NCBI GenBank assembly: GCA_947174015.1
Contig: CAMWHJ010000001.1
Coordinates: 1-64,000, forward strand
Length of the DNA: 64,000 nucleotides
Direction: 5' to 3'
From: an uncultured Lachnospiraceae bacterium
Lineage (GTDB): Bacteria; Bacillota; Clostridia; Lachnospirales; Lachnospiraceae
The position numbers were made by a program, and so were the translations under genes. Numbering within the stretch: position 1 is the first letter of the stretch; each line of letters begins with the position of its first letter. A model generated the notes under the pieces. That model was not told where the DNA came from. It saw only the letters and a program-made list of their open reading frames with translations, and did not search any database. Shown one piece after another: positions 7,548 through 25,882 of the stretch.

Positions 7548-9650
7548 ATGATTAAATTTGGCAAAGGTGTGGTAAAACTTCGAGTACCCATCTTTATCTT
7601 AAGCCTGCTGTTGTTGATACCTTCTGCCATCGGCTATCTGAATACCGGTATCAACTACGATTTACTATCTTATCTGCCGGGAGAACTGGAAACCATGAAA
7701 GGTCAGGATATTCTGGTGGATGAATTTGGTACGGGAGCCTTTTCCTTTTATATTGTGGAAAACAAATCCAACAAGGAAATTTCCGAAATAAAAGAAAAAA
7801 TTCTGGCAGTACCTCATGTGGAAAAAGTAATCTGGTACGATTCCTTAGCAGATTTATCCGTACCAATGAGTGCGATACCTGATGATATCTATCAGGTATT
7901 TAATTCGGAAACCTGTACCATGATGGCAATTATTTTTGATGATACCACCTCCTCGGAGGGAACCATGAAAGCCATCACCACCATCCGGGAATTATCTGAT
8001 GAGGACTGTTATCTCAGCGGTATGTCGCCTGTGGTGGCAGATACCAAGATTATTTCTGAGACAGAAACACCAATTTATGTGGCAATCGCAGCTGTCTTGT
8101 CTGCCATTGTATTGAGTCTCACCATGGATTCCTTCTTAGTACCTCTGCTGTTTCTGATGACCATCGGAATGTCCATTATCTACAATCTGGGTACCAATAT
8201 TTTTATGAGGGAAATCTCCTATATTACACAAGCACTTGCAGCGGTATTACAATTGGGTGTTACCATGGATTATGCCATTTTCCTATGGCACAGCTACGAA
8301 GAACAAAAGGAGCGGTTTCAGGGGGATAAGGAACGTGCCATGTCCCATGCCATCAAGGCAACCATCTCCTCTGTGGTGGGCAGTTCCATCACAACCGTAG
8401 CCGGCTTTATTGCCCTGTGCTTTATGAGTTTTACTTTGGGACTTGACCTTGGTATTGTCATGTCCAAGGGTGTTATATTGGGGGTTGTTGCATGTATTAC
8501 CATCCTGCCTTCCATGATTTTGATTTTTGACAAGGCAATTACAAAAACACACCACAAACCGGTAATCCAAAAGCCGGAAAGACTGCCCTCCTTTATTTCA
8601 AAGCATTATTTGGTGTTCGGTCTTATTTTTATCATTGTACTGTCCCCGGCTTACTATGGAAATTCCCATGCACCGGTTTACTACAATATCGCTGATACTT
8701 TACCGGAAACTTTAGACAGCGTGAAAGCCAACAATAAGCTTTCCGAAAATTTTTCCATGAACTCTACCCACATGATACTGTTCAACAGCCAGTTGTCCGG
8801 CAAAGAAAAACGCTCCATGATAAAAGAGATGGAAGATGTGGACGGTGTAGAATGGGTGCTGGGATATGAGACAATTTTAGGTCCCACCATTCCGGAAAGC
8901 TGGATACCTGAAGAAGTAACGGAAGCATTAGAAAATGACACTTATGAGATATATCTTATCAGTTCTCAGTACAAAGTAGCTTCCGATGAGGTAAACAATC
9001 AGTGCACCCAGTTAAATGATATTATAAAAAGCCATGATTCCAATGCCCTACTGGTGGGCGAGGCACCTTGTACCAAAGATTTGATTACCACCACCGATAA
9101 GGACTTTCAGGTGGTAAGTATTATCTCCATCGGAGCCATCGTTGTGATTATTGCCTTGGTATTCCGTTCCATCTCACTGCCGGTAATCCTTGTGGCCGTC
9201 ATTGAGTTTGCCATCTTTATTAATATGGCAGTGCCATATTACACCAACACTTCCATTCCTTTTATCGCCTCTGTGGTAATCGGAACCATACAGTTGGGTG
9301 CAACCGTGGATTATGCCATTTTGATGACCACCAGATATAAGAAAGAACGCAGAAATGGTGCCACCAAAAAGGATGCCACCTACATTGCATTGGACACATC
9401 CATGATGTCTGTGGTGGGAAGTGCATTAAGCTTTTTCTCTGCAACCATTGGTGTGGCATTATATTCTGACATAGATATGATCAGTGCCATCTGTATGATG
9501 CTTTCACGGGGAGCCATCATCAGTATGTTTGTAGTATTGTGTATTCTTCCTTCCATGTACATGATATTTGACAAGGTCATCTGTTACACAAGTATCGGTT
9601 TTCTGCCAAAGAAAACAAAAAACAATAACAACACAGCCATAAATATTTAG
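7548..9650 (+). CDS. MMPL/RND family transporter
   Basis: Two RND halves with repeated TMDYAIFLWHSYEEQ / TVDYAILMTTRYKKE, large extracellular loops. Confidence 0.92.
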   Translation: MIKFGKGVVKLRVPIFILSLLLLIPSAIGYLNTGINYDLLSYLPGELETMKGQDILVDEFGTGAFSFYIVENKSNKEISEIKEKILAVPHVEKVIWYDSLADLSVPMSAIPDDIYQVFNSETCTMMAIIFDDTTSSEGTMKAITTIRELSDEDCYLSGMSPVVADTKIISETETPIYVAIAAVLSAIVLSLTMDSFLVPLLFLMTIGMSIIYNLGTNIFMREISYITQALAAVLQLGVTMDYAIFLWHSYEEQKERFQGDKERAMSHAIKATISSVVGSSITTVAGFIALCFMSFTLGLDLGIVMSKGVILGVVACITILPSMILIFDKAITKTHHKPVIQKPERLPSFISKHYLVFGLIFIIVLSPAYYGNSHAPVYYNIADTLPETLDSVKANNKLSENFSMNSTHMILFNSQLSGKEKRSMIKEMEDVDGVEWVLGYETILGPTIPESWIPEEVTEALENDTYEIYLISSQYKVASDEVNNQCTQLNDIIKSHDSNALLVGEAPCTKDLITTTDKDFQVVSIISIGAIVVIIALVFRSISLPVILVAVIEFAIFINMAVPYYTNTSIPFIASVVIGTIQLGATVDYAILMTTRYKKERRNGATKKDATYIALDTSMMSVVGSALSFFSATIGVALYSDIDMISAICMMLSRGAIISMFVVLCILPSMYMIFDKVICYTSIGFLPKKTKNNNNTAINI

Positions 9651-9662
9651 GAGGTTTTTATT

Positions 9663-12404
9663 ATGAAAAAGAAATTTGTAAATTCAACCATTGCTGTTAC
9701 TGCCCTTTCCTTAGCTGCTGTCAGCGGCTTATCCTCTGTGGGCATTGCCAATGCACAGAACAATAATAATACCGATGAAGATGCACAGGATTCCACCCTC
9801 ACTGATACCATTGATGCGGTGGAAAACAATGATACCGTAAATAAGGTAAAGGAAACCCTTTCATCCCCCTCCAGCGATAATGCAGATAAAGAGGAAACGG
9901 TATATGTCAGTGCCAATGCCGATGGAAGCACCAAAGAAATCATTGTCAGCGACTGGCTGAAAAATAAGGATAATGCTTCCACCTTAAGTGACATCAGTGA
10001 CTTAATGGATATTGAAAATGTAAAAGGCTATGAAGAATTTGTTCAAAACTCTGACGGCACCATCACTTGGAATGCCGATGGCGAAGATATCTACTATCAG
10101 GGAAAAACCTCCAAGGAACTTCCTATCTCCGTAAAAATTACCTACACCGTAGATGGGAAGGAAATTGCTGCCAGTGAGATGGCTGGAAAAAGCGGCAAAG
10201 TAACCATGCGGTTTGACTACACCAATCACTCCAGTCAAACCATAAAGGTAAATGGTGTGGATACCACCATTTACACACCATTTGTTACCGTTACCGGCAT
10301 GATTCTGCCTTCCGATGTATTTCGCAATGTGGAGGTTTCCAATGGCAAGGTGATCTCTGACGGCAGTAATCTGATTGTGGTAGGTTTGGCAATGGCCGGT
10401 TTGTCTGAAAGCCTTGGTTTAGGTGTGGATTCTGATATTGATATTCCGGATTATGTGGAAGTGACTGCCGATGTCACTGACTTTGCACTGGAAACCACTG
10501 CCACCATTGCCACACCAGATTTACTTTCCAACATTGATATCAATGATATGGAATCCTTAGATGACTTGGAATCCTCCTTAAATGAACTTACCGATGCCTC
10601 CAAACAGTTAGTGGATGGTACTGGGAAATTAAAGAGTGGTTCCCAAAAATTAAAGGATGGTTCCCAAGAATTAGCAGATGGTACCACCACTTTAAAAAAT
10701 GGCACCTCTCAGTTAAAATCCGGTGCAGGCACTTTACAGGACGGTACTTCCAAGCTTTGGAACGGTTCTGTCACCTTAAAGGATTGTACTGCTTCCTTAA
10801 AAAAAGGTACTTCGAACCTGCTGGCTGGTGCAGGCTCCTTAAAGAAAGGTACTTCGGATTTGAAAGACGGCACTGTCACTTTAAAGAAGGGTACCAGCGA
10901 TCTACTGACTGGTGCAGGCTCCTTAAAGAAAGGTACCTCGGATTTAAAAGACGGTGCTGCTACCTTAAAGAAAGGTACCAGCGATTTAAAAAACGGTGTA
11001 GATACCTTGAAAACTGGTACTTCCCAGTTAAAAACCGGAGCTGAGAAACTGGCATCCGGTACCACAGACCTGTCTTCTGGTGCAGACAACTTAAAAGCCG
11101 GTACCGCACAATTAGTTTCTGGTTCTGCTACCCTTTATACCGGCATCCAAAGTTTAAATACCGGTTTAGCCTCTGCCAAAACAGGAGCCGATCAACTGGT
11201 TGCCGGCTATGAGGGCGGTGTCGTAACCGGAGCTCAGAATCTGGCAGGGGGATTAAACCAGTTAAACACCACCATATCCGGACTATCGGGTTTGGGTTCA
11301 CAAGTCTCTTCCCTGACCAGTGAACTGGCTGCCAAAAAAGCGGAACTGACTGCTGCACAAACTACCCTTCAGGGTGCCATTGCCGGAATTGACCAACAGG
11401 TGCAGGCAGGCACTCTGACCACAGAAGCTGCTTTGGAACAATACAAAGTTTGCTACACACAGCTTGGTCAGGTACAGGGGTCTCTTTCCGTCATTGAGGA
11501 ACTGACTGTCACTCTTTCACAAGCAGGCTTGGATAAGTTAGACATGACTACCTTGCAGACCTCTGTTGCTGCTTTATCCGAGGGAGCCACAAATCTATCC
11601 AATGGTATCAATCAGCTCTATGCCGGCAGCCAGTCCCTGCAGTCTGGATTAAACGAACTCACTGCAGGGGGTACTTCTTTAGAAGCAGGTGCAAAACAGC
11701 TTTCAGCTGGTATCACACAGGTAGATACCGGTGCCGCTTCCTTACAAAATGGTGCAGCCCAATTAGTAACCGGTGCCGCTCAGTTAAATACTGGTGCATC
11801 CAGCCTGGATTCTGGTGCCGATAACCTGAAAACTGGTGTGAAAAAGCTGGATGATGGTGCCAAAGACTTAAAGGATGGAAGTAAAAAACTGGATGATGGT
11901 GCCAAAGACTTAAAGGATGGTGCCAAGAAACTGGATGACGGTGCCGGTGATCTAAAGGATGGAAGCAAAAAACTGGATGACGGTGCCAAAGATTTAAAGG
12001 ATGGTGTACAGAAGCTGGATGACGGTGCCAAAACCTTAGATTCCGGTGCTGCCTCTTTAAAGGATGGTGCCAATCAGTTGAATCTAGGTGCTGCTGCCCT
12101 GTATACAGGTATTGTAAAGGTAGATGATGGTGCCATCAAACTTCATACCGGAAGCCACACCTTGAATGATGGTATCGCCACACTCTTTGATGGTGTGGTT
12201 ACCTTAGATGATGGTATGAACGAATTTGACCGGGATGGTATTCAAAAACTTTCCAACGTGTACAATGATGACCTGCTTCCCGTGAAAGACCGTTTCAATG
12301 CCATTAAGGATGCCGGAAATAATTACCATGTATTCAGTAATATTGCCGAGGGCAAAAACGGTACTTGTAAGTTTATCATTACCACAGAGAGTATTTCAAA
12401 ATAA
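9663..12404 (+). CDS. Secreted coiled-coil protein with long Leu-x-x-Gly heptad repeats (YhgE/Pip-like)
   Basis: Signal peptide; many tandem (L-x-x-G-x-x-x) heptads such as LKDGSKKLDDGAKDLKDGAKKLDDGA; 13 bp after the MMPL gene. Confidence 0.88.
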   Translation: MKKKFVNSTIAVTALSLAAVSGLSSVGIANAQNNNNTDEDAQDSTLTDTIDAVENNDTVNKVKETLSSPSSDNADKEETVYVSANADGSTKEIIVSDWLKNKDNASTLSDISDLMDIENVKGYEEFVQNSDGTITWNADGEDIYYQGKTSKELPISVKITYTVDGKEIAASEMAGKSGKVTMRFDYTNHSSQTIKVNGVDTTIYTPFVTVTGMILPSDVFRNVEVSNGKVISDGSNLIVVGLAMAGLSESLGLGVDSDIDIPDYVEVTADVTDFALETTATIATPDLLSNIDINDMESLDDLESSLNELTDASKQLVDGTGKLKSGSQKLKDGSQELADGTTTLKNGTSQLKSGAGTLQDGTSKLWNGSVTLKDCTASLKKGTSNLLAGAGSLKKGTSDLKDGTVTLKKGTSDLLTGAGSLKKGTSDLKDGAATLKKGTSDLKNGVDTLKTGTSQLKTGAEKLASGTTDLSSGADNLKAGTAQLVSGSATLYTGIQSLNTGLASAKTGADQLVAGYEGGVVTGAQNLAGGLNQLNTTISGLSGLGSQVSSLTSELAAKKAELTAAQTTLQGAIAGIDQQVQAGTLTTEAALEQYKVCYTQLGQVQGSLSVIEELTVTLSQAGLDKLDMTTLQTSVAALSEGATNLSNGINQLYAGSQSLQSGLNELTAGGTSLEAGAKQLSAGITQVDTGAASLQNGAAQLVTGAAQLNTGASSLDSGADNLKTGVKKLDDGAKDLKDGSKKLDDGAKDLKDGAKKLDDGAGDLKDGSKKLDDGAKDLKDGVQKLDDGAKTLDSGAASLKDGANQLNLGAAALYTGIVKVDDGAIKLHTGSHTLNDGIATLFDGVVTLDDGMNEFDRDGIQKLSNVYNDDLLPVKDRFNAIKDAGNNYHVFSNIAEGKNGTCKFIITTESISK

Positions 12405-12460
12405 AGTTATCTGCCTTGTGCTCATTGTATACTATCAAATACAAAGCTGTACAAGACAAT

Positions 12461-12540
12461 ATAGGACTGTGCATGACTGCACAGTCCTATACTGAATCAT
12501 TACAAAATTTTGTAACTATTCAGTACCTTCATAGTTACAA
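12461..12540. repeat. Dispersed palindromic intergenic repeat, copy 3
   Basis: ATAGGACTGTGCA-tgac-TGCACAGTCCTAT, then ACTGAATCATTAC / GTAACTATTCAGT inverted pair. Confidence 0.75.
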
Positions 12541-12546
12541 AATTTT

Positions 12547-12768
12547 TTACTTCTTCGCCCCATCCTTAGATGCTATCTGGTTGCTGTTTCCATTCTCTTT
12601 ATTGTGAGACCCATTGTTACAGCCATTTTTACTTCCAATCATAATCCCCTTTTTCGCAGGTGCCAGCATAAATCCGATAATAATCCCCACGCATAGGGCT
12701 GTGGCTATCCCTAAAATTTTTTCTAACGGAGTATAATCCTTATTGATAATCTCTTGCATCTTATTCAT
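12547..12768 (-). CDS. Small single-TM protein, last gene of the 12.5-19.2 kb operon
   Basis: One hydrophobic segment (ILGIATALCVGIIIGFMLAP); start overlaps upstream gene stop. Confidence 0.65.
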   Translation of the reverse strand: MNKMQEIINKDYTPLEKILGIATALCVGIIIGFMLAPAKKGIMIGSKNGCNNGSHNKENGNSNQIASKDGAKK

Positions 12769-13672
12769 GTTGTGAAACCTCCCTTTTGGCTTTCATTTTA
12801 GCACTGTAATGGTGAAACATTTTAACACTCCACCAAGTGCTCCTATTATACCATAAGAGAAGAAAAAAAACTACTGCAAAGAAAAATTCATACTTTGCTC
12901 TTCGCATTTTTTCTAACTGCCCCACTTCCAAAGTGCTTTTGGATGTACTTTCTAACATCCTTTTTTTTTCCTGATAGGTTTGAAAGTTCTCCTTCCATCC
13001 TGAAAAATCCGACCATTTCCCCGGAAAAAGCCGGGAAAACGGTGGAAAAAAAACGCTGAATTCATAAGGCACCCGTTCACCTGCCACTTGATATCTCTGC
13101 TGAAATTTTGCATAGGTATCCTCTATATCTTCTTCCTCTTTCCCCTTTACTGTGATATGATCCAAGATGGACGACTGGGTGCGGTCATAGTTGGTCACAA
13201 ATAAATTGCTTTCTTTTAAAATGCCCCGCACCTGATAAGTATCTCCCTGCCAATTCACATACAAACCTACGGTGTTTTCGCTGCCAAAAAGCAGCCAGCT
13301 TGCCTCACTGCCCAAAAGACAGCCCTCCCTGTCATTTTGCGACAAAGACTTTCCCCCAGCAAGCAGTATACTTGAAGAACCCCAGATCGTAAGATGTTGC
13401 ACCTGTGCACTATGATATTTTTCCTGATCCGTAATCTGTTCTTTCCCATGTTCTCCCCAGACAACATACTCCATCCGTTCCTGAGATTCCAGACTTTGGG
13501 CTGCTTTCTTCAAAACTTCCATATCCTCAGCGGAATACCCTGCCGGAACATAAATGGTTACATTCTGCCTTAACATCTGACTGTCATCATAATGGAGAAT
13601 TCCTCCAAGCAGACAGAAAAAACTACATAGGAGACAGGCTGCAAAAATCAGACTGCTCCTTAACCTTCTCAT
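12761..13672 (-). CDS. Membrane-anchored protein with MacB-PCD-like extracytoplasmic domain, no FtsX bundle
   Basis: N- and C-terminal TM segments; ORF extends further but ATG at 13672 overlaps the adaptor stop (ATGA). Confidence 0.65.
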   Translation of the reverse strand: MRRLRSSLIFAACLLCSFFCLLGGILHYDDSQMLRQNVTIYVPAGYSAEDMEVLKKAAQSLESQERMEYVVWGEHGKEQITDQEKYHSAQVQHLTIWGSSSILLAGGKSLSQNDREGCLLGSEASWLLFGSENTVGLYVNWQGDTYQVRGILKESNLFVTNYDRTQSSILDHITVKGKEEEDIEDTYAKFQQRYQVAGERVPYEFSVFFPPFSRLFPGKWSDFSGWKENFQTYQEKKRMLESTSKSTLEVGQLEKMRRAKYEFFFAVVFFLLLWYNRSTWWSVKMFHHYSAKMKAKREVSQHE

Positions 13673-15060
13673 GGATTTTGCAGGCGAATTCTGCTGCCTG
13701 CACTCACGGGACGGTCTGTCTCTGTAATTATTTTCGCATCCGGGCTTAAGGAATCGGATTTTAGGGCTGCAAATCGACTGTTTTGCTCCACCACCTCCAC
13801 TGGCAGTTCCCGCACCACCCACTGCTGTCCCAACACAGTATTTTCCTCTTCTGCAACATACACAAAGGAATTCTCTCCATTTTTGTGAAGTGCCCCCATG
13901 GGAATGGCACAAGAATACAGTTCCGACTGCTTGCTTATCTTCATGGTGGCAGTGTCTCCAATGGAAATATTGTCTGCCGGCACTGATACAATCACCTTAA
14001 GATTATCGCTGGCTTCTTCCTTCTCTATGGCAATTACCCCTGCCTTCTCCACTGTGGTATTATAAGTTTTTATGCTCACCATATCCCCCACTTGAATAAA
14101 TTCCTTGTCTTCCTCCTGAATCACCGCAGCAAACCGCAGCCCCTGACTGATATCTGACATGGAAAAGGCTGCCGTATCTGTGGTTTTCTGACCTACCAGA
14201 AGGTAACACTCCGTAATCACTCCCTGTACCGGTGAAGTAATTTTCCCCTGAGCTTCTTTTAAAAGTTTTAGCTTTTCCAAAGATTTTTCATATTTTTTCT
14301 CCGCAGTGCTGTTGTCCTCCACAGGTGTGGTATCAGCCATATCATTGGCATCTTCCATCTGACGTTTCGCCTGTGTCTCTGCCTGCTGATAAGCAGACAG
14401 CACATCTGCATAATTCTGGGCAGCCTGCTGTTCCTGCTGCTCCAGTGCCTCTATGGAAGAGCCGCTTTCTGACATCTCTTTGGATGAGCCCCCTTCCTGC
14501 TGCTCCCTTGCGGTTTTTAAGGCTTGCTGTGCCGAAAGCCATTGGTCTTTTGCATTTTTTAGGGCACTTTCGTTGTCCTGAATGGTTCTATCATAATCCT
14601 CCTTGGCTCTTTCCCTGGTTTTCTTGGCATTTTGTGCTTCCAGTGCTTTATTCTGCACACTCTGAGCTGTTTGGCGTTTTAGCGTGGTAAGCTCTGCCTG
14701 TAATTCTTGTATTTTCTCTTCCAAGTATTCCATATCAAGCTGTGCCAAAACCTGTCCCTGTTCCACCTTGTCACCCTTCTTTACATACACTGTCTGCACC
14801 AGTAAATCCCCCTCTGTCATGACTGCCTGCTCCAGATTCTGCTCCACCATACCTTCCGCCTCTACTATATGCTCTATTCGCTTGGCGGATATGGTGTCTA
14901 CGGTGACCTTTGCCACAGTAAAGGAATCCGCCGCCTTGGCAGCAATGGTAGCCAGGAGAAAAAATCCCAGCCATGCCAGCAGAAGATTTTTCAGCCATTG
15001 GCTCACCTTTGTTGACTTTTCTTTCACATTATCACCTCGTTTTTCTGTCTGATTTTCCAT
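13669..15060 (-). CDS. HlyD/RND-type periplasmic adaptor subunit
   Basis: Single N-term TM, lipoyl-like halves VEQNLEQAVMTEGDLLVQTVYVKKGDKVEQGQVLAQLD and ITSPVQGVITECYLLVGQ around a coiled coil; ATG at 15060 coupled to permease stop (TAATG). Confidence 0.87.
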   Translation of the reverse strand: MENQTEKRGDNVKEKSTKVSQWLKNLLLAWLGFFLLATIAAKAADSFTVAKVTVDTISAKRIEHIVEAEGMVEQNLEQAVMTEGDLLVQTVYVKKGDKVEQGQVLAQLDMEYLEEKIQELQAELTTLKRQTAQSVQNKALEAQNAKKTRERAKEDYDRTIQDNESALKNAKDQWLSAQQALKTAREQQEGGSSKEMSESGSSIEALEQQEQQAAQNYADVLSAYQQAETQAKRQMEDANDMADTTPVEDNSTAEKKYEKSLEKLKLLKEAQGKITSPVQGVITECYLLVGQKTTDTAAFSMSDISQGLRFAAVIQEEDKEFIQVGDMVSIKTYNTTVEKAGVIAIEKEEASDNLKVIVSVPADNISIGDTATMKISKQSELYSCAIPMGALHKNGENSFVYVAEEENTVLGQQWVVRELPVEVVEQNSRFAALKSDSLSPDAKIITETDRPVSAGSRIRLQNP

Positions 15061-15908
15061 TACTCCTTTTGAACCGTACAGGCGATTCCCTGCTCTAAAT
15101 ACTCCTGCCCAAACAAGAACACCAGCACTGCCGGCAACAGTGCAAACAGAGAGGCACAAAAAGCAAAACCTGCCTGACTGATATCAATTTCCGGCAAATA
15201 CATGGATAAGGGCCACAATTCCTTGTTCTTTAAAAACACCAACGGACGTTCCATCTGGTGAAAACTTTCTAAAAACTGCAATACCATGGCAGAGATGATA
15301 CCTGCCTTGCCCAGCGGGATTCCTATATGAAAAAATATGATAAACTCTCCTGCTCCATCTATTCTGGCTGCCTCGATAACCTCCTTTGGTACACCCCAAA
15401 AGAACCGATACATCAAAAATACAGAAAAAGTGGAAAATACCCCCGGCATGATAATTGCCCAATGACTGTCTAATAACTGTAATCTGTCCAGTGCCAGATA
15501 TTCCGACAGCATAGTAACCTGAAAGGGCAGCATCATCAGTATCACATACAAAAAGTAAAGCTGCTTTCTGCCGGGAAATTCATAGACTGCCAATCCCCAT
15601 GCTGCAGGCATGGCAAAGATAAGCTGTCCCACCAAAGTAAATAATGTAATTTTTAAGGAATTCCAAAAAGTCTGATAAAACTCTAAAGAATCCAGTAGCA
15701 GCTCCACCAAATTCTGCAAGGTGGGAAACTGGGGCAGAAAATGCCAGGCAGCCAATCCCTCTGTATGATTTAATACCGGACCTAAAAGTTCCGTTAATTC
15801 TAACTGATCCATAAAAGCACCTGAGAACAGGCAAAGGACTGGTGTTATCATGATAAGGCATACTGTCCACAAAAGTATGTTTTTCATTAAATTCACCATT
15901 TTTTTCAT
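15060..15908 (-). CDS. Carbohydrate-type ABC transporter permease (MalG-like)
   Basis: Multiple TM segments, EAARIDGAGEFIIFFHIGIPLGKAGI EAA loop. Confidence 0.9.
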   Translation of the reverse strand: MKKMVNLMKNILLWTVCLIMITPVLCLFSGAFMDQLELTELLGPVLNHTEGLAAWHFLPQFPTLQNLVELLLDSLEFYQTFWNSLKITLFTLVGQLIFAMPAAWGLAVYEFPGRKQLYFLYVILMMLPFQVTMLSEYLALDRLQLLDSHWAIIMPGVFSTFSVFLMYRFFWGVPKEVIEAARIDGAGEFIIFFHIGIPLGKAGIISAMVLQFLESFHQMERPLVFLKNKELWPLSMYLPEIDISQAGFAFCASLFALLPAVLVFLFGQEYLEQGIACTVQKE

Positions 15909-16756
15909 ATACTTTCACGCTCCCAGCTTCTTTGCAGTCCTATTACAAGGACTGTAAGTACCAGAAAAAGAACCACCGAAGCCGCAGACATTTTGTCCAT
16001 TGATAACTCCCGAAACCAATTATTAAATAAATGCTGCAGCTGATAAATACTTTCCTGAGGGTAATTTCCACCCACCAGATACGCCTCACGAAATACTTTG
16101 AAAGAATTGATGATACTGATCACTACAATGGTAAAGGCTGACTGCCGCAAATTAGGCAGTGTCAAATAACGAAATCTCTGTATGGTGTTGGCACCATCCA
16201 TTTTCCCTGCTTCGTAAATACTTTCCGAAATTCCCGAAAGTCCTGCACTCCACAGTAAAACCGTATAGCCCAGATTTTTCCACAAATAACTGAACACCAG
16301 TACCCAGAATGCCCAGGAGGTATTCATAAAATCAATGGGGTCTGCTTCAAATAAACTTATCAGTCGATTCATCAATCCATGGCTGTCAAAAAACAGTTTC
16401 CAGATTAATACTACTGCTGCCGTTGGGATTGCCATCGGAAGCAAATAACTGCTTTTCAGCAAGCCGCCCATCTTCCCCATGGTCTGCAGGCTTACGGCTG
16501 CCAATAAGGATACCAAGAGCAGCAAAGGCAGACACACCACGCTAAAGCGCAGTGTGTTGCCGGCAGCCAGCAAAAATGCTTTGTTTCTGAATATCTGTTG
16601 AAAATTATCAAAACCACAAAAGCTCCCATCCAGCCGCAGAAATGCCCGATGCATTACATCCACGAAGGGGATTAGTGTAAAAATTGAAACACCTAGAAAT
16701 TCCGGCAGCACAAAGAAAATTCCGGTCCATTTCTGCTTTTTGCTTTTATATTTCAT
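15905..16756 (-). CDS. Carbohydrate-type ABC transporter permease (MalF-like)
   Basis: TM-rich, YEAGKMDGANTIQRFRYLTLPNLR EAA loop; overlaps next gene by 4 nt. Confidence 0.9.
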   Translation of the reverse strand: MKYKSKKQKWTGIFFVLPEFLGVSIFTLIPFVDVMHRAFLRLDGSFCGFDNFQQIFRNKAFLLAAGNTLRFSVVCLPLLLLVSLLAAVSLQTMGKMGGLLKSSYLLPMAIPTAAVVLIWKLFFDSHGLMNRLISLFEADPIDFMNTSWAFWVLVFSYLWKNLGYTVLLWSAGLSGISESIYEAGKMDGANTIQRFRYLTLPNLRQSAFTIVVISIINSFKVFREAYLVGGNYPQESIYQLQHLFNNWFRELSMDKMSAASVVLFLVLTVLVIGLQRSWERESI

Positions 16757-16767
16757 ATCAGATCCCC

Positions 16768-19209
16768 TTATTCGGAAAGATAAAGATTAACTTTCTGCAA
16801 AATATTTTGTACCGCCTCATCTAAAGACTGACTATCCTTCAAGTACTTTTCTCCCTCTTCTATCACCAAATCTGAAATGGTGGTATCTTCTATCCCTGCC
16901 AATTTTAAGGATTCTATTTCTTTGGTAAATTTATCTTTATGTTCCTCTGTCAGTGGTATCATATCATATGAGATTATAACTCCCTCTTCATTTGACATTG
17001 CAAGACTGCTGTCTGTCGGCTCATCAATTTCCTTTTTCCATAATTCCTCATAAGCACTGCGGTTTATGGGATATCCGCCAGATACCGACTTTGCCAATTC
17101 TTTTCCGTAAAAGGCAAGCATAAATTCCTGCACGGAAGTCTTTTTTTCACTTTCTTTTACAATACCGGCACTCATATATGGCAAAAATGTTTCACCCATC
17201 ATCTGATAACTGCCTCCTATTTCTGCCTCTATGGACAAAAGATCCCTCAAATTATATAAATCTCCCAGGGTACCTATGGCAATTTCATTCTGTTTCATCA
17301 TTCTTCCTATCACAGCTATTCCTGCACTTCCAAATCCCTCTGTATCTGTTGGATTTAAAGAAAGAGAAACAGTTATCTGTTCCATCTTATCCGGCACATC
17401 ACCATCCAAATCATACAATGCCTTCACAGCTTGAAGAAATGTCTTAATCTTCCCTTCATCCAGTCGTCCGTCTTCCTGCATCCACGTTCCGGAATCCGCC
17501 TGATAAAATGTCTCTAAAATAAGTCTTCGGGAATAAAATAATGCTTTTCCCTCCTGTTTTATAGTTGCCGCATATTCTGCCAGCTTTGTCAGGCTCTCTC
17601 CGGCAGCCACCGTATCATCACTGCCTTCAATGACAGACAGCAAAAAGCGGCTTGGCAAAGCATAGACTTTTCCGTCCTTCTCATATACCTGCTTTATATT
17701 TTCAAAGATTCCATCCGAGTCCTCCACCTGCTTTAGAATACCGCTCATATCCGCCAAAATTCCTTTTTCCAGATAGCTGTTGACTGGCATGCCGTCCAAG
17801 ATAAGAATATCAGGACCTTTTCCTGCCAATATATTGGTATTTAATGATTTGATGGCATCTTCTGCTGTGACACCGCTGTTCTCACTGATACCAATTTCAA
17901 TCTTTACATAAACATCAGGGTGTGTACTCTGGAAATTTGCCACTGCCTTTCTTAAGATGGTAGAATCCTTTAGTGTATAAATATTTATCTGCTCCTCCGG
18001 AACTGCCGATGCATTTTCATCATACACATATTTGAAAAGCTTAGAATTCCCAACACTGTCACAGGCCAAAAGCATATAAGTAATTTCATCCCACATAAGA
18101 AGTTGTTTTAAGCCCATGCTGGTATCTCCTAAGGAGGTCAACTCTCCATTGATTACCTGCTCACTGACACTGCCGTTTTCTTTATGATAGAATACTCCTT
18201 GATGATTTCCGTATACAAGGCTGTTTTCTTCCATCCCTTCTGCCATAACCACAGGATAAGCTCCCATAGCACCACTGAGATCCCCCTTTGCTGTCTGGCA
18301 AACTTCATTTAATACCGCATCCTCTGGCATCTGGCTGCCATCCTTGGCGGACAATATCTTCATGCCATTTTCTGTACATGCATAGATTCGCTCCCCTGCA
18401 ATGCCAAAGAAATCCAAACCGTCTTCCTCGCCATTATACAACTCCGTAAGTTCTCCTGTCTGTGTGTCAATCCGACATAATTTGGCATATAAATCCTGTA
18501 TGATTAAATTTCCCTCGCCATCAATATCTGCCTGTACTATCATGTTGTCAATATCTATTTTTTCCTGTTCCGAAGCATCCTTATTTTCTGCTTCTGACGT
18601 CCCCTGCTGTTCATTCAATGTATCGGTTTCTTCCGGCACGTTCTCCTGTTCATTGACCGTATTATCTTTTTCTCCTTCTGTCTCTATGGTAATATCATCG
18701 GTATCCTCATATGTTGTAACACTGCCGCCCTGCTCCCCGGCTCCTTTTGGCAGCCGGAAGGAGGTACTCTTTACCTGTCCGTCTTTGGATATCACCTTTA
18801 ACTCCGAATTATCAGCATATCCTACCACAGCTAAAATCGTGCCATCCTTTAGAATCTCCATCTCGCTTACAGCCTCTGAGAAATCCGGCAGCATATCTAC
18901 CTGCCAGTTCTCTCCCATATCACTGCTGACTGCCTTGCAATAATTTCCTGTGGGATCAAAGCCTGCTATCATAATGCTCCCATCCTCCAGCTTGCCCATG
19001 CTCATTATCTCTGCCAGCTCCGACGGCAGGTTCACTTGGGATTCTAAAAATCTTCCTTTTGCATCCTCTGTTTTTGCCTCATCCTTGGGCTTATCCTCCG
19101 GCTGACCTCCTTCTGGCTGACTGACTGCATTCCCTCCACAGCCTGCCAGACCGGTACATAAACTGGCGGTTACTAAAACTGCCAGAAATTTTTTTAATTT
19201 CTTTCTCAT
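16768..19209 (-). CDS. Extracellular solute-binding lipoprotein with long N-terminal propeller-like region
   Basis: Lipobox GLAGCGG; N-terminal DGSIMIAGFDPTGNY / DGTILAVVGYADN repeats; C-terminal SBP (NSYLEKGILADMSGILKQ). Confidence 0.82.
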   Translation of the reverse strand: MRKKLKKFLAVLVTASLCTGLAGCGGNAVSQPEGGQPEDKPKDEAKTEDAKGRFLESQVNLPSELAEIMSMGKLEDGSIMIAGFDPTGNYCKAVSSDMGENWQVDMLPDFSEAVSEMEILKDGTILAVVGYADNSELKVISKDGQVKSTSFRLPKGAGEQGGSVTTYEDTDDITIETEGEKDNTVNEQENVPEETDTLNEQQGTSEAENKDASEQEKIDIDNMIVQADIDGEGNLIIQDLYAKLCRIDTQTGELTELYNGEEDGLDFFGIAGERIYACTENGMKILSAKDGSQMPEDAVLNEVCQTAKGDLSGAMGAYPVVMAEGMEENSLVYGNHQGVFYHKENGSVSEQVINGELTSLGDTSMGLKQLLMWDEITYMLLACDSVGNSKLFKYVYDENASAVPEEQINIYTLKDSTILRKAVANFQSTHPDVYVKIEIGISENSGVTAEDAIKSLNTNILAGKGPDILILDGMPVNSYLEKGILADMSGILKQVEDSDGIFENIKQVYEKDGKVYALPSRFLLSVIEGSDDTVAAGESLTKLAEYAATIKQEGKALFYSRRLILETFYQADSGTWMQEDGRLDEGKIKTFLQAVKALYDLDGDVPDKMEQITVSLSLNPTDTEGFGSAGIAVIGRMMKQNEIAIGTLGDLYNLRDLLSIEAEIGGSYQMMGETFLPYMSAGIVKESEKKTSVQEFMLAFYGKELAKSVSGGYPINRSAYEELWKKEIDEPTDSSLAMSNEEGVIISYDMIPLTEEHKDKFTKEIESLKLAGIEDTTISDLVIEEGEKYLKDSQSLDEAVQNILQKVNLYLSE

Positions 19210-19429
19210 GTTTTGTCATTCCTTTCCTGTTTTTGAAGTAACTGCACTGTATGTTCACAGGTACTTTGTCGGAAACTGCTGACTAATCAACGTTTTCCTT
19301 TCTCCTACTATAACAGAAGTTTCTTTAAATTTTCTTTAAGCTTCCCTTTAATTTTTTTGCCCCTTTAAAGATTTCTTTAAGATTGCTATGATATAATATA
19401 TTGGAACAAACATGTGAAGGAGAATACCC

Positions 19430-20104
19430 ATGAAAATATTACTGATAGAGGATGACGAAAATTTATGTGAAACTCTGTGCTTTCAACTGGAAAAGGAACA
19501 TCATCAGGTGGATGTCTGCCATGATGGCAGAGATGGACTGGATTTGTTTCTTCAGGATGCCCATGATCTGGTTTTGCTGGATCGGATGCTGCCCACCATG
19601 AACGGTCTGCTGGTGCTTAAGAAAGCTCGTGAAAAAAATATCAATACCCCGGTGATTCTTCTCACTGCCCTTGGAGAATTGTATGATAGAATTGAAGGTT
19701 TAGACAGCGGCGCCGATGACTATATTGTAAAACCCTTTGCCTACGAAGAGCTGTCTGCCAGAATCCGCTCCATTGGCAGACGCAATGGCACCTACAACGA
19801 AAATCAACTGCTGACCTATGCAGATATCAGTTATGACAATGAATTGCGGGAACTGAATGGACCGACAAACAGTTTACAGCTTTCCGGCAGAGAGGGAAGC
19901 TTGTTAGAAGTATTTATACAATCCCCCGGCATCACCCTTCGGCGTATGGCAATTCTTTCCAGAGTCTGGGGCATTGATGCTCCAGTGGAAGAAGGGAATT
20001 TAGATACCTATATCCATTTTTTGAGAAAGCGGTTATCCTATGTGGGCAGCCGTCTGAATATAAAAACCATCCGGGGAATTGGATATATGCTGGAGGAAAC
20101 GTAA
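19430..20104 (+). CDS. OmpR-family response regulator
   Basis: LLIEDDENLCETL, LLDRMLP, GADDYIVKPFAYEEL, winged-helix C-terminus. Confidence 0.93.
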   Translation: MKILLIEDDENLCETLCFQLEKEHHQVDVCHDGRDGLDLFLQDAHDLVLLDRMLPTMNGLLVLKKAREKNINTPVILLTALGELYDRIEGLDSGADDYIVKPFAYEELSARIRSIGRRNGTYNENQLLTYADISYDNELRELNGPTNSLQLSGREGSLLEVFIQSPGITLRRMAILSRVWGIDAPVEEGNLDTYIHFLRKRLSYVGSRLNIKTIRGIGYMLEET

Positions 20105-21409
20105 ATGACCAAAGATTTTCGAAAACTGAGAAAACAAATGACCTTATTTTCTGCCATAATTACAGGAGCCATCCTATTGGCATTGTCTGCTGCCTGTCTG
20201 TTTTTTGCCGAAAGCAGCAATAAGCGAAACAGCTATGCTTCTTTTTTAAAGGAAAGTAACACCGTGATTCTTCAATTACAAAGTGCTTCTGCCATTTCCC
20301 ACCAGTGGCTGAATCAGCTCCATAATAACAGCAGCTTTTTAATTTATCTTTATGATAATGGAAATCCGCTGTATTATCAGGTTTTGCAAAATGTCAATGG
20401 GGAAGATTCTAAAAATTCTCTGACTGATTCTGTAATTTCCTATGTAAAGGATACGTATTATCTGGATATTTTTCAAAACAGCAACAGCCTTTTTCCCATC
20501 CATGAGGAATTTACCTTTCAGGATACTTCCGGTATGTCATACTATGTATCTGCCGGGCTGGTTCCAAAAACTGGCGGAACTTTAAGCTTTCTGATTCTTT
20601 TTCCATTAAGCCATCAACAACAGCAGATTCTATCCCTGCACCTGTTTATTGGCATTGCGGACATACTGTGCCTATTATTGCTAACCGTATTTGCCTGGAT
20701 TTTTTCCGGTAAAATGTTAGTGCCTTTGGTGGAAAATAAAAGAAAGCAGACTCAGTTCGTGGCAGCCGCCTCCCATGAACTGCGCACTCCTTTAACTGTG
20801 ATTCTGTCTGCCCTGGAAGCGGCAGAGAAAACAGACAGCCCGGAAAAACAACAACATTTTTGCAAGCTTATGAAGGAGGAAGGAAAGCGGATGCAGCGCC
20901 TGATTTCCGATATGCTGCTGCTTGCCAACTCGGATTCCAAGCATTTTCAAGTACAGCGAAAGCTCTGCCAGCCGGACGAAATTCTGCTGAATGTATATGA
21001 AAAATATGAAAATCCTGCCAGTGACAAGCAGATAGGATTACAGATTGCCCTTCCTCCCAATGAAGTACCGGACTGTTTTTGTGATATGGAACGGATCATT
21101 CAACTCTTATCCATTTTGCTGGACAACGCTCTCTCTTACACTCCTGCCGGGGGGAAAGTGAAGCTTTCCCTCACTGTTACTGCCCATAAGAAAATACGAT
21201 TTTATGTGGCAGATACGGGAATGGGCATTCCCACCGAAGAAAAAAAACACATATTTGAACGTTTCTATCGGGCAGACAGCTCCCACACCAAAAAGGAGCA
21301 TTTTGGACTGGGATTGTCCATTGCCAAGGAAATTGTGGATGCTCACAAAGGCAGTATTTGGGTGGAGGATAATGTGGGGAGAGGCACTGTGTTTGTGGTA
21401 GAAATATAA
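20105..21409 (+). CDS. Sensor histidine kinase
   Basis: ASHELRTPLTVI, DNALSYTPAGGKV, GMGIPTEEKKHIFERFYR. Confidence 0.93.
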   Translation: MTKDFRKLRKQMTLFSAIITGAILLALSAACLFFAESSNKRNSYASFLKESNTVILQLQSASAISHQWLNQLHNNSSFLIYLYDNGNPLYYQVLQNVNGEDSKNSLTDSVISYVKDTYYLDIFQNSNSLFPIHEEFTFQDTSGMSYYVSAGLVPKTGGTLSFLILFPLSHQQQQILSLHLFIGIADILCLLLLTVFAWIFSGKMLVPLVENKRKQTQFVAAASHELRTPLTVILSALEAAEKTDSPEKQQHFCKLMKEEGKRMQRLISDMLLLANSDSKHFQVQRKLCQPDEILLNVYEKYENPASDKQIGLQIALPPNEVPDCFCDMERIIQLLSILLDNALSYTPAGGKVKLSLTVTAHKKIRFYVADTGMGIPTEEKKHIFERFYRADSSHTKKEHFGLGLSIAKEIVDAHKGSIWVEDNVGRGTVFVVEI

Positions 21410-22661: not shown

Positions 22662-25181
22662 TTATTCCCGATTTTTTAGTACTTCCGCAGGAAGCATTTT
22701 ACTCAGTCTCAGCACTAAAAATTGATTGATGATAAAATACAATACTAGAATTGCCAAATACAAACCTGCATACATCTGCCATGAAAAGGTAAGATTCATA
22801 CCACATGCCACATTGGACACCAGAATAGGATACATTTCATCCATCACCCATTTGGACAAGGGAATGCAAACCGCTGCTCCTGCTGCAACCATGTAAAAAT
22901 TGCCGCTAAGGTACAGCTTGTTGATTTCTTTTTTGCGGTAACCAAATATTTTAATCATGGAAATGCTGAAGGCGGCTCTGTCCAGCATAACTTTCATCAT
23001 AAGATACATGACCACACAGAAAATCAGTATGGATACCCCTGTCATCATATAAATCATTGGCATCATCATATTTACAAAAACATCTGAACTTTTCTCAATT
23101 TGAGCCCTGGTGGTGGTGGAATATAATCTATTGGTATCAATTCCTAAATCCTCAGCAGAAAAAACCACGTTGTAATAATCATCCCCCGCACCAAACAATT
23201 CCCGCATGCTGTCAATCTCCATAAACACATACAGTCCGGGAGAAAACTGGGTAATGTCTTCCACTGTAAAAACATAATCCTGTTCTGCCTCCTCATCAGA
23301 CAATACCACATGATCTCCCTTGGACAGTCCATACTTCTGTGCCATTGCAGAAGAGATTACCACCTGACTTTTGCTTTTTGTGATCTTTGCATCAAAATAC
23401 GGATTCTCTTCTCTGATTCCCAGCAGCGTCACCTCTAAATTATAACCAAACACTTCTTTATTTAGCCCCTTAGCATAGCAGGCTTCGCCGCCCTTGGGAA
23501 CCTTTTGTTCTGGATATTTGTAGGTGTACATATATTCATATTTTGTGTCTGCCTTATTTTCCACACTGAAATTTTTGCACATAACATAACAGTCTATGCC
23601 CAACATCAAGATGAGCATGGAAATAAACATTCCCAAAATAACCGTAAACCCTGCTCGTGCCTCTCGAATCATCTGACGAATACGAAATCTTCCCACAAAG
23701 CCCATACTTCCCAAGTTGATTTTTTGAACTGCCCTGGTTTTCTTTTCGTTTTTCAAAAGAGAAAGTACCGGACGTTTCAAACGTTTTCGTATCACCAGAT
23801 AATTCACAACCACTGCCGCAACCGGGGGCATCACCACACCATACACCAGAAGATACAAAGAATATACTTTTGAAAAGTGTGGAATAGAAAAATAATTGTA
23901 ACAATCCATCATCTGAACCTCTACTCCTATGGTACTATAACCTAAGACTGTTCCTATCACTCCCGCAAAAAAAGTGACTGCTGTCGGCAATATCAAATAA
24001 TGATGCAATAATTCTTTTTCTTTTACCCCCAGTGCATAGAGGGCACCGATGACCATACTCTCTTTATCTATTCCATGAATGATAAAAATAGAAATCACAT
24101 AAGTAAACAGTATCATCACAATAACTCCTGCCGCCAGACCTGCCAGCTTATTGATCACCTGATCCTCGGCTGCTGCCGCCACCCTTGGATTGTCCTCCAC
24201 AGGAAGAAGGCTGGTAAGCTTTGAAAGCTTCACATCAAAATAGGTATCTAAAAGTTCCTCACTTTCTTCCTTAAGTCGGGTAACACCATCCAGAAGTTCT
24301 ATACTCCCCTCATATGCCTCCTGTTCTGCTCCCTTTTGTAAATCCTGATTGCTGGCTGCAAGTTCTTGTAACCCCTCTGACAGTTCTTTTGTTCCATCTT
24401 TGAGTTCTGTGACACCATCCAGAAATTTATCTCTTTGCCCTAAATTTTCCTCATAATACTCTTGAAAATAGGGATCTTCCACCGACTCCATGGAAAGTTC
24501 AAAATTCTCCAGCTTTTCTTTTAATTCTTTCTTGGTTTCTTTTCCGTTTAATAAGTAGGCATAGACATATTCTTCCGACTTTTCACTGCTGCCCTGAGCT
24601 TTTAGACTGTCATATTCCTCTGAACTTACAAAGGCCGTGCCAAACTGGCGGCTGTCCACAGAACTATCTGTGAGATTCCGGAAAGGGGCATCATAATCCG
24701 GTGTTGAGCCTATTCCCACAATGGTGTAAGTCTGCCCCTCTGCACCCAGATGAATTTCATCTCCCACCCGCAAATTATGCTCTGTGCAGTAGCGTTTTTC
24801 CAACACCACCTCTTTGGAATGTTCTGGCAGCTCTCCCACGTCAAGGGCAATCAGATTGATTTGCTGCCGATTCTTAGATACACGAAGGGTACTGCCATCC
24901 TCCTGCCGGTAATCCAGATAAAACATTTTTTCCAGTGTGATGCCCTGTTTTGTAAGGCTTTCCTCCTCTTTTGGGGTCAATGGCACAAACAAAGTAAACT
25001 CTCCGTCTTCTAAATGGTGCTTCTGGGCGGACTTTTCTGTTCCCTGCATAATGGTCTCCGCTGCTCCCACCAGACTTACAATCAGATACATGGCAAGAAT
25101 AATCATCAGACTTAATGCCAAATAGCGAAAGTAGTTTTCCCTAAGATCTCTTTTGATTCTTTTTCCTAATATTTTCTCCAT
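22662..25181 (-). CDS. ABC transporter permease, FtsX family
   Basis: FtsX-like TM blocks, periplasmic domain, internal LKDGTKELSEGLQEL heptads. Confidence 0.9.
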   Translation of the reverse strand: MEKILGKRIKRDLRENYFRYLALSLMIILAMYLIVSLVGAAETIMQGTEKSAQKHHLEDGEFTLFVPLTPKEEESLTKQGITLEKMFYLDYRQEDGSTLRVSKNRQQINLIALDVGELPEHSKEVVLEKRYCTEHNLRVGDEIHLGAEGQTYTIVGIGSTPDYDAPFRNLTDSSVDSRQFGTAFVSSEEYDSLKAQGSSEKSEEYVYAYLLNGKETKKELKEKLENFELSMESVEDPYFQEYYEENLGQRDKFLDGVTELKDGTKELSEGLQELAASNQDLQKGAEQEAYEGSIELLDGVTRLKEESEELLDTYFDVKLSKLTSLLPVEDNPRVAAAAEDQVINKLAGLAAGVIVMILFTYVISIFIIHGIDKESMVIGALYALGVKEKELLHHYLILPTAVTFFAGVIGTVLGYSTIGVEVQMMDCYNYFSIPHFSKVYSLYLLVYGVVMPPVAAVVVNYLVIRKRLKRPVLSLLKNEKKTRAVQKINLGSMGFVGRFRIRQMIREARAGFTVILGMFISMLILMLGIDCYVMCKNFSVENKADTKYEYMYTYKYPEQKVPKGGEACYAKGLNKEVFGYNLEVTLLGIREENPYFDAKITKSKSQVVISSAMAQKYGLSKGDHVVLSDEEAEQDYVFTVEDITQFSPGLYVFMEIDSMRELFGAGDDYYNVVFSAEDLGIDTNRLYSTTTRAQIEKSSDVFVNMMMPMIYMMTGVSILIFCVVMYLMMKVMLDRAAFSISMIKIFGYRKKEINKLYLSGNFYMVAAGAAVCIPLSKWVMDEMYPILVSNVACGMNLTFSWQMYAGLYLAILVLYFIINQFLVLRLSKMLPAEVLKNRE

Positions 25182-25882
25182 TACAAATCCTCCAATTCTG
25201 CTGCTGGTATTCTGTTTTTATTTTGGTATTCTCTGCTGATCTGCCCATCTTTGATTCGGATTACTTTATGTACCATATTTTTGATGGAGTTGTTGTGGGT
25301 TACAATCAACATGGTGGTGCCGTATTTCTGGTTGATTTTCTCCAACAGAATTAAAATGTCCTTGGAGGTTTTGGAGTCCAAAGCTCCTGTGGGTTCATCA
25401 CAGAGCAAAAGCTTTGGGTTCTTGATTAATGCCCTTGCTATGGCACATCTCTGCTGCTGACCCCCGGAAAGCTGGGAGGGAAATTTGTTCTGATGTTCTG
25501 TAAGTCCCAAAGTTTCTAATAACTCATCCATATCCAATGGATGCTCTGACAAATACTCGCAAACCTGAATATTTTCCTTTACGGTTAAATTGGGCACCAG
25601 ATTATAAAATTGAAAGATAAAGCCAAGATTTTCTCTTCGATAATCCGACAGAGCATCCGGCTTTAAACCTGCCACTTCCTTGCCATCTACCTTGATGGAG
25701 CCGGAGTCCAAGGTGTCCAAACCACCGATACAATTTAAAAAGGTTGACTTTCCCGAACCGCTGGTTCCCTGTATCACACACATCTGTCCTTTTTCCACAC
25801 CTGTGGTAATTCCCTTTAACACTTGGATGTAGCTTTCATTTTCACCGTAACTTTTTTTCATATCTTTCACTTCTAAGTACAT
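25181..25882 (-). CDS. ABC transporter ATP-binding protein (MacB/LolD type)
   Basis: GTSGSGKST, LSGGQQQRCAIARAL, LLCDEPTGALD. Confidence 0.95.
   Translation of the reverse strand: MYLEVKDMKKSYGENESYIQVLKGITTGVEKGQMCVIQGTSGSGKSTFLNCIGGLDTLDSGSIKVDGKEVAGLKPDALSDYRRENLGFIFQFYNLVPNLTVKENIQVCEYLSEHPLDMDELLETLGLTEHQNKFPSQLSGGQQQRCAIARALIKNPKLLLCDEPTGALDSKTSKDILILLEKINQKYGTTMLIVTHNNSIKNMVHKVIRIKDGQISREYQNKNRIPAAELEDL

Follow-up and report, generated by a model that had tools for sequence, protein, structure and literature searches.

The window analysed here is a stretch of 64,000 nt from an uncultured, gut-type Lachnospiraceae bacterium (GCA_947174015.1, CAMWHJ010000001.1 positions 1-64,000, forward strand). 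Positions 12547-21409 hold a cassette of six minus-strand genes and a divergent response regulator (RR) and histidine kinase (HK) pair:

12547..12768, minus strand: 73-aa one-TM protein at the operon end, lineage-specific by tblastn
12761..13672, minus strand: MacB-PCD-like membrane protein (PCD; MacB_PCD 4.1e-5), studied through an alignment, a relative's model and the placement of its hairpin on a tree
13669..15060, minus strand: HlyD/MacA-type membrane-anchored adaptor (RND_mfp 1.1e-14, under the family cutoff; family-profile match to MacA structures)
15060..15908, minus strand: MalG-type permease, UgpE-like (BPD_transp_1 3.6e-10; coupling loop EAARIDGA)
15905..16756, minus strand: MalF-type permease, UgpA-like (BPD_transp_1 2.5e-17; coupling loop EAGKMDGA)
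16768..19209, minus strand: solute-binding lipoprotein (SBP), studied by Pfam, AlphaFold2, Foldseek and lipobox/Asp-box counts
19323..19380, minus strand: putative RR operator of five TTAAAG hexamers, from 11-bp repeat statistics, motif and genome scan
19430..20104, plus strand: OmpR/PhoB-type response regulator (Response_reg 7.4e-25, Trans_reg_C 2.9e-16)
20105..21409, plus strand: sensor histidine kinase with two TM helices and a ~145-residue extracytoplasmic loop (HisKA 3.9e-19, HATPase_c 2.8e-27)

In the window, 11 bp separate SBP from MalF, after which MalF and MalG overlap by 4 bp, MalG and HlyD by 1 bp (TAATG, with the HlyD start codon an ATG at 15060), HlyD and PCD by 4 bp (ATGA), and PCD and the one-TM gene by 8 bp. 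This layout confirms the original prediction of six minus-strand genes coupled by overlaps beside a divergent OmpR-type RR/HK pair. Within the gap that separates the operon from the convergent gene, two inverted repeats, AAAATTTTGTAACTAT...ATAGTTACAAAATTTT and GGACTGTGCAGTCATGCACAGTCC, lie at positions 12460-12545 and are perhaps terminators. The cassette flanks (window 7548-12404 and 22662-25882) encode an MMPL protein, a 913-aa repeat protein, and an FtsX permease with its ATPase; the 913-aa protein has long LKDGTxxLxxG-type repeats, and the flanking FtsX permease has a shorter stretch of the same type.

Import-type permeases, solute-binding protein and ATPase

The two BPD_transp_1 permeases of the window, with their EAA-type coupling loops, are those of a CUT1 (type I) importer. 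Both permeases largely retain the E(A/S)A-DGA loop, as do the MalG proteins of relatives. The SBP comprises a signal with a lipobox (C24), a predicted beta-propeller at residues ~51-401 and a CUT1-type solute-binding domain at ~406-813. Its SBP_bac_1 match (2.8e-5) is just under the Pfam cutoff in the window and over it in three of the four relatives scanned, and the best Foldseek match of the domain was CbpC (7x0o, E 4.9e-16), followed by other oligosaccharide-binding proteins. Pfam and Foldseek thus both give the MalE-like fold of CUT1 importers, and the substrate may be oligosaccharide-like. The ~350-residue propeller-like N-terminal domain was missing from the original prediction. Its Pfam matches are weak only, and its prediction as a propeller comes from the strand count of the AlphaFold2 model (~23 strands in residues 51-401; pLDDT 85.5, pTM 0.83) and the Asp-box, which is found in 43 of 49 loci (one copy in the window, SSDMGENW). 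The lipobox is present in 46 of the 49.

The window operon contains no ATPase gene. That absence had been predicted and stands, and it is explained by MalK/MsmX-type ATPases in the operons of distant relatives and by one elsewhere in the genome. The window genome encodes a single MalK/MsmX-type (OB_MalK) ATPase, on another contig; since 272 of the 299 family genomes have one, its presence alone is weak evidence. An ATPase lies inside the operon in six loci from five genomes outside the family. The order is MalF-MalG-HlyD-PCD-ATPase-SBP in four loci outside the family and SBP-MalF-MalG-HlyD-PCD-ATPase in L187, and L184 has no called HlyD. All five in-operon ATPases scanned, of the six, matched ABC_tran, OB_MalK and TOBE_2. 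The SBPs of four of these loci are ~460-500 aa long, too short for the propeller domain. Given the MalK-type ATPases in relatives' operons and the kept coupling loops, the missing ATPase is no sign of a function other than transport, and an MsmX-type ATPase encoded elsewhere may serve MalFG. The multitask ATPase MsmX of B. subtilis has the residues D77, R104, E110 and K154 (PMC7658222); by position count without alignment to MsmX, the window-genome ATPase has D77, R104 and K154 but Q110. The L186 in-operon ATPase has N77 and E154 at the MsmX multitask positions.

Among known systems, the cassette resembles the CUT1 / type I importers that use MsmX (B. subtilis, PMC7658222) in its MalF/MalG pair with coupling loops, its lipoprotein SBP and an ATPase that presumably comes from elsewhere, with the MalK-type gene in distant relatives' operons. 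Unlike them, it includes a MacA-type adaptor and, as a further extra part, a MacB-PCD-like protein, its SBP has an N-terminal propeller-like domain, and it comes with an OmpR-type two-component system (TCS) with its own operator-like repeats.

The adaptor and the MacB-PCD-like protein

The HlyD adaptor has one TM helix, a lipoyl/barrel-sandwich domain with HlyD-like barrel-sandwich matches in Pfam, a coiled coil and a beta-barrel. Its family profile matched MacA structures at 1e-13 to 1e-11, as a MacA-type adaptor should. The PCD protein of the window, whose MacB_PCD match is just under the Pfam cutoff, consists of TM1, a periplasmic-core-like domain, a PGKWSDFSGW motif and a C-terminal TM helix; the TM2-TM3 hairpin is missing, so the window copy departs from a MacB-type permease, which has the PCD and four TM helices including that hairpin. 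In the alignment, a conserved IPxKWSDFxFW motif precedes the last helix of the PCD proteins. MacB_PCD matched 33 of 61 PCD members, FtsX in Pfam matched none of the 61, and no NCBIfam model fitted. A model of the Murimonas PCD (L087; pLDDT 90.2, pTM 0.85) runs from the first helix through the core domain, two helices and an amphipathic helix to the last helix, and Foldseek matched it to MacB 5lil (1.3e-9), YknZ 5f9q, the S. pneumoniae MacB-like 5xu1 and LolCDE.

The original prediction had described the protein as MacB-PCD-like without FtsX helices. This is correct for the window copy and fails as a general trait, as many relatives outside the window clade have a PCD with MacB-like four-helix topology. 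On the MalF+MalG tree, 16 of the 17 hairpin-less PCD rows, the window's included, form one starred clade, the remaining one being L137, and hairpin presence requires two changes in all versus 13.6 in shuffles. Read from this tree, the absence of the TM2-TM3 hairpin is a derived loss in the window clade. In a sister clade, PCD proteins are predicted to have two helices and match MacB_PCD more clearly (e.g. L154, 4.9e-11). Because the major coupling helix of MacB sits between TM2 and TM3 (PMC5985334), a PCD that has lost this site probably works without an ATPase of its own, and it is unlikely that the window copy is driven by one.

MacAB and the Gram-positive MacAB-like systems (YknWXYZ, S. pneumoniae 5xu1; PMC4887032, PMC5985334) likewise combine a HlyD/MacA-type adaptor with a MacB-PCD-fold protein, the latter systems in monoderms. 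The cassette differs from them in lacking the LolD/MacB-type ATPase that a MacAB pump would have, in having no recognisable FtsX domain, in a PCD that is two helices shorter in the window clade, and in its linkage to MalFG and an SBP. An adaptor that bridges to an outer membrane seems to be ruled out: Omp85 was found in none of ten hosts, the window's among them, and there is thus no sign of an outer membrane in these hosts. TolC-like OEP matches were seen in seven hosts.

Conservation of the cassette across Lachnospiraceae

The SBP query had matches in 102 of 299 family genomes, and most loci around 40 of those matches contained SBP-MalF-MalG-HlyD-PCD with the divergent RR/HK. Scanning genome contigs with a MalF signature, the C-terminal part of MalF, gave at least 549 loci, of which 80 were examined. 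MalF-MalG-HlyD-PCD was uninterrupted and in order in 65 of these 80, and RR and HK were both present in 66; many of the loci without the full block or the TCS stop at contig ends. Hosts include Blautia, Roseburia, Murimonas, Diplocloster, Lactonifactor and Sporofaciens, and most loci examined are from Lachnospiraceae, across which the grouping is real and recurring. In a sister clade of ~19 loci, whose MalF signature is more distant, MalF-MalG-HlyD-PCD is kept, mostly without an adjacent TCS, and an SBP is often present on either side of the block. For the 49 loci that have the full set of seven genes, correlations between the distance matrices are 0.75-0.93, values to which shared organism history also contributes.

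Adaptor and PCD genes occurring independently of MalFG and SBP would have counted against the predicted composite machine, and this is not what we found. Among strong PCD-profile matches in the family genomes, 41 of 43 lie within 8 kb of a signature MalF on the same strand. Of the two exceptions, one is a contig break (L172) and the other a split operon, in which MalG-HlyD-PCD stand together (L215) and the same genome has SBP-MalF and the TCS at a separate place (L053). The prediction of a composite machine is well supported by the conserved block, by the PCD genes beside MalF and by this joint move of MalG-HlyD-PCD in one genome. We found no description of the MalF/HlyD/PCD importer-adaptor combination in the open-licence literature, and the cassette appears to be a genuine composite machine that has not been described so far.

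These data bear on whether the importer is an ordinary CUT1 oligosaccharide transporter and HlyD/PCD an independent efflux pair that happens to share its operon. Taken singly, every part has a known family or fold, and a canonical ATPase-HlyD-FtsX operon adjoins the TCS in seven loci, mostly of Blautia. Nonetheless, the family genomes yielded no HlyD/PCD of the cassette type away from MalF and MalG, the cassette has no LolD-type ATPase and the in-operon ATPases scanned are all MalK-type, so that we give such a chance association little probability. The seven loci with the MacAB-like operon, near the kinase gene, are L077, L098, L101, L111, L120, L131 and L139, and in most of them an SBP gene lies between HK and RR. 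In L217 (G188:C44), a long SBP gene of the cassette's family (736 aa) is directly 3' of a MacAB-like operon of HlyD, a 230-aa ATPase and an FtsX-size protein.

Not every locus has the complete set. In the family genomes, 40 of 56 strong signature-MalF matches have a strong PCD match nearby, and the clade members L042, L044, L051, L060 and L067 keep HlyD and have no PCD, which makes HlyD the more constant accessory and means that PCD is not essential everywhere. Among 94 flanking genes, no family recurred beyond local synteny such as DegV; no catabolic neighbours recurred, and the neighbourhood therefore lends no support to sugar uptake. The 73-aa one-TM gene, which the original prediction had placed within the combined operon unit, falls outside the conserved unit. 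Its protein matched no Pfam family, tblastn over all fetched loci matched only L073, downstream of PCD, and we rejected this lineage-specific gene as a component of the machine.

A different use of the same parts would be mechanotransmission, in which ATP hydrolysis at MalFG is relayed through PCD and HlyD to extracellular work, such as acting on cell-wall enzymes or expelling compounds, with little or no import. In fold, PCD belongs with the mechanotransmission (type VII) ABC proteins, the cassette has no catabolic neighbours, and Gram-positive MacAB adaptors are linked to export (PMC5985334). We nevertheless consider this function unlikely, as the hairpin at the site of the major coupling helix is lost in the window clade, the permeases and SBP, like the MalK-type ATPase, belong to import systems, and PCD is dispensable in some members.

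Probable regulation by the two-component system and a proposed machine

Operator-like repeats between SBP and RR, missing from the original prediction, probably link the TCS to the operon. Of 57 RR-SBP spacers, 47 contain the same 6-mer repeated precisely 11 bp apart, where 40 shuffles gave a mean of ~4 such spacers and at most 9; other spacings in the 57 spacers are mostly near expectation, with a smaller excess at 12, 22 and 23 bp. The repeat motif is TTTA(A/G)AG. In the window, TTAAAG hexamers start at 19323, 19334, 19346, 19363 and 19375 (CTTTAA on the plus strand), spaced 11-12 bp apart with one 17-bp gap. Direct repeats at ~11 bp are expected in the target promoters of OmpR-type regulators, and their conservation in this promoter region fits an OmpR-type TCS; most likely the RR regulates the operon, probably by activating rather than repressing it. 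Across the genome the motif pattern had 13 matches versus 11 for a reversed control, for which reason we rejected a genome-wide regulon drawn from the motif; only the RR-SBP spacer has a cluster (three matches).

Transporter operons beside a dedicated OmpR-type TCS are also known from BceAB-BceRS modules, where BceAB serves as the sensor for BceS. The cassette differs from these in its import-type permeases and SBP, in having no FtsX-type permease and in a kinase with a large extracytoplasmic loop. By analogy with BceAB-BceS, the SBP, permease and adaptor could chiefly be a ligand sensor for the adjacent kinase. RR and HK accompany the cassette in 66 of 80 loci, HK and SBP distances correlate at r=0.91 (49 loci with all seven genes), and the operator repeats are compatible with feedback wiring. 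Against this, the sister-clade cassette is mostly without an adjacent TCS and the kinase has an extracytoplasmic loop of its own, and we judge a chiefly sensory complex very improbable. As an interpretation, then, the composite machine of the original prediction held up, while the sensing complex was unsupported as the main function, the repeats being most likely those of an RR that regulates the operon.

The best reading, which we hold with moderate confidence, is a monoderm CUT1-type importer whose extracytoplasmic module derives from MacA/MacB and which its own TCS induces. Gene content and order, co-occurrence, MalK in relatives, the operator-like repeats and the hairpin loss are what sequence alone supplies to it. 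The operon would encode a single envelope machine of a monoderm bacterium, its parts physically assembled and working in the import direction. MalF-MalG would be the CUT1-type (type I) ABC importer, powered by a MalK/MsmX-type ATPase from elsewhere in the genome and bearing a module derived from MacA/MacB efflux systems, that is, the HlyD/MacA-type adaptor and the ATPase-less MacB-PCD-like protein. The lipid-anchored SBP would capture its ligand outside the membrane and pass it to MalFG. Adaptor and PCD may form a scaffold or funnel round the permease that extends into the cell-wall zone and organises the SBP or guides the substrate. The divergent kinase and regulator would turn the operon on through the 11-bp-spaced TTTA(A/G)AG repeats.

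HlyD/MacA-type adaptor proteins are known from export. If the conserved tie between adaptor and import permeases holds, the cassette would constitute a new ABC importer architecture and, if true, would suggest a further role for adaptors in bacteria that lack an outer membrane. We also put forward, tentatively and as a rather doubtful extension, a class of trans-cell-wall ABC importers with a MalFGK2 core and a MacA/PCD funnel, which would take up large ligands from the propeller-fused SBP and so turn an efflux architecture to import. With the cassette present at several hundred loci (at least 549), its operator, kinase and SBP allow direct tests.

Two further observations concern the variety of the loci. 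Two to four SBP paralogues stand in tandem 5' of MalF in L074, L084, L112, L126 and L146. The cassette of L151 is on a record whose title names a Sporofaciens musculi plasmid.
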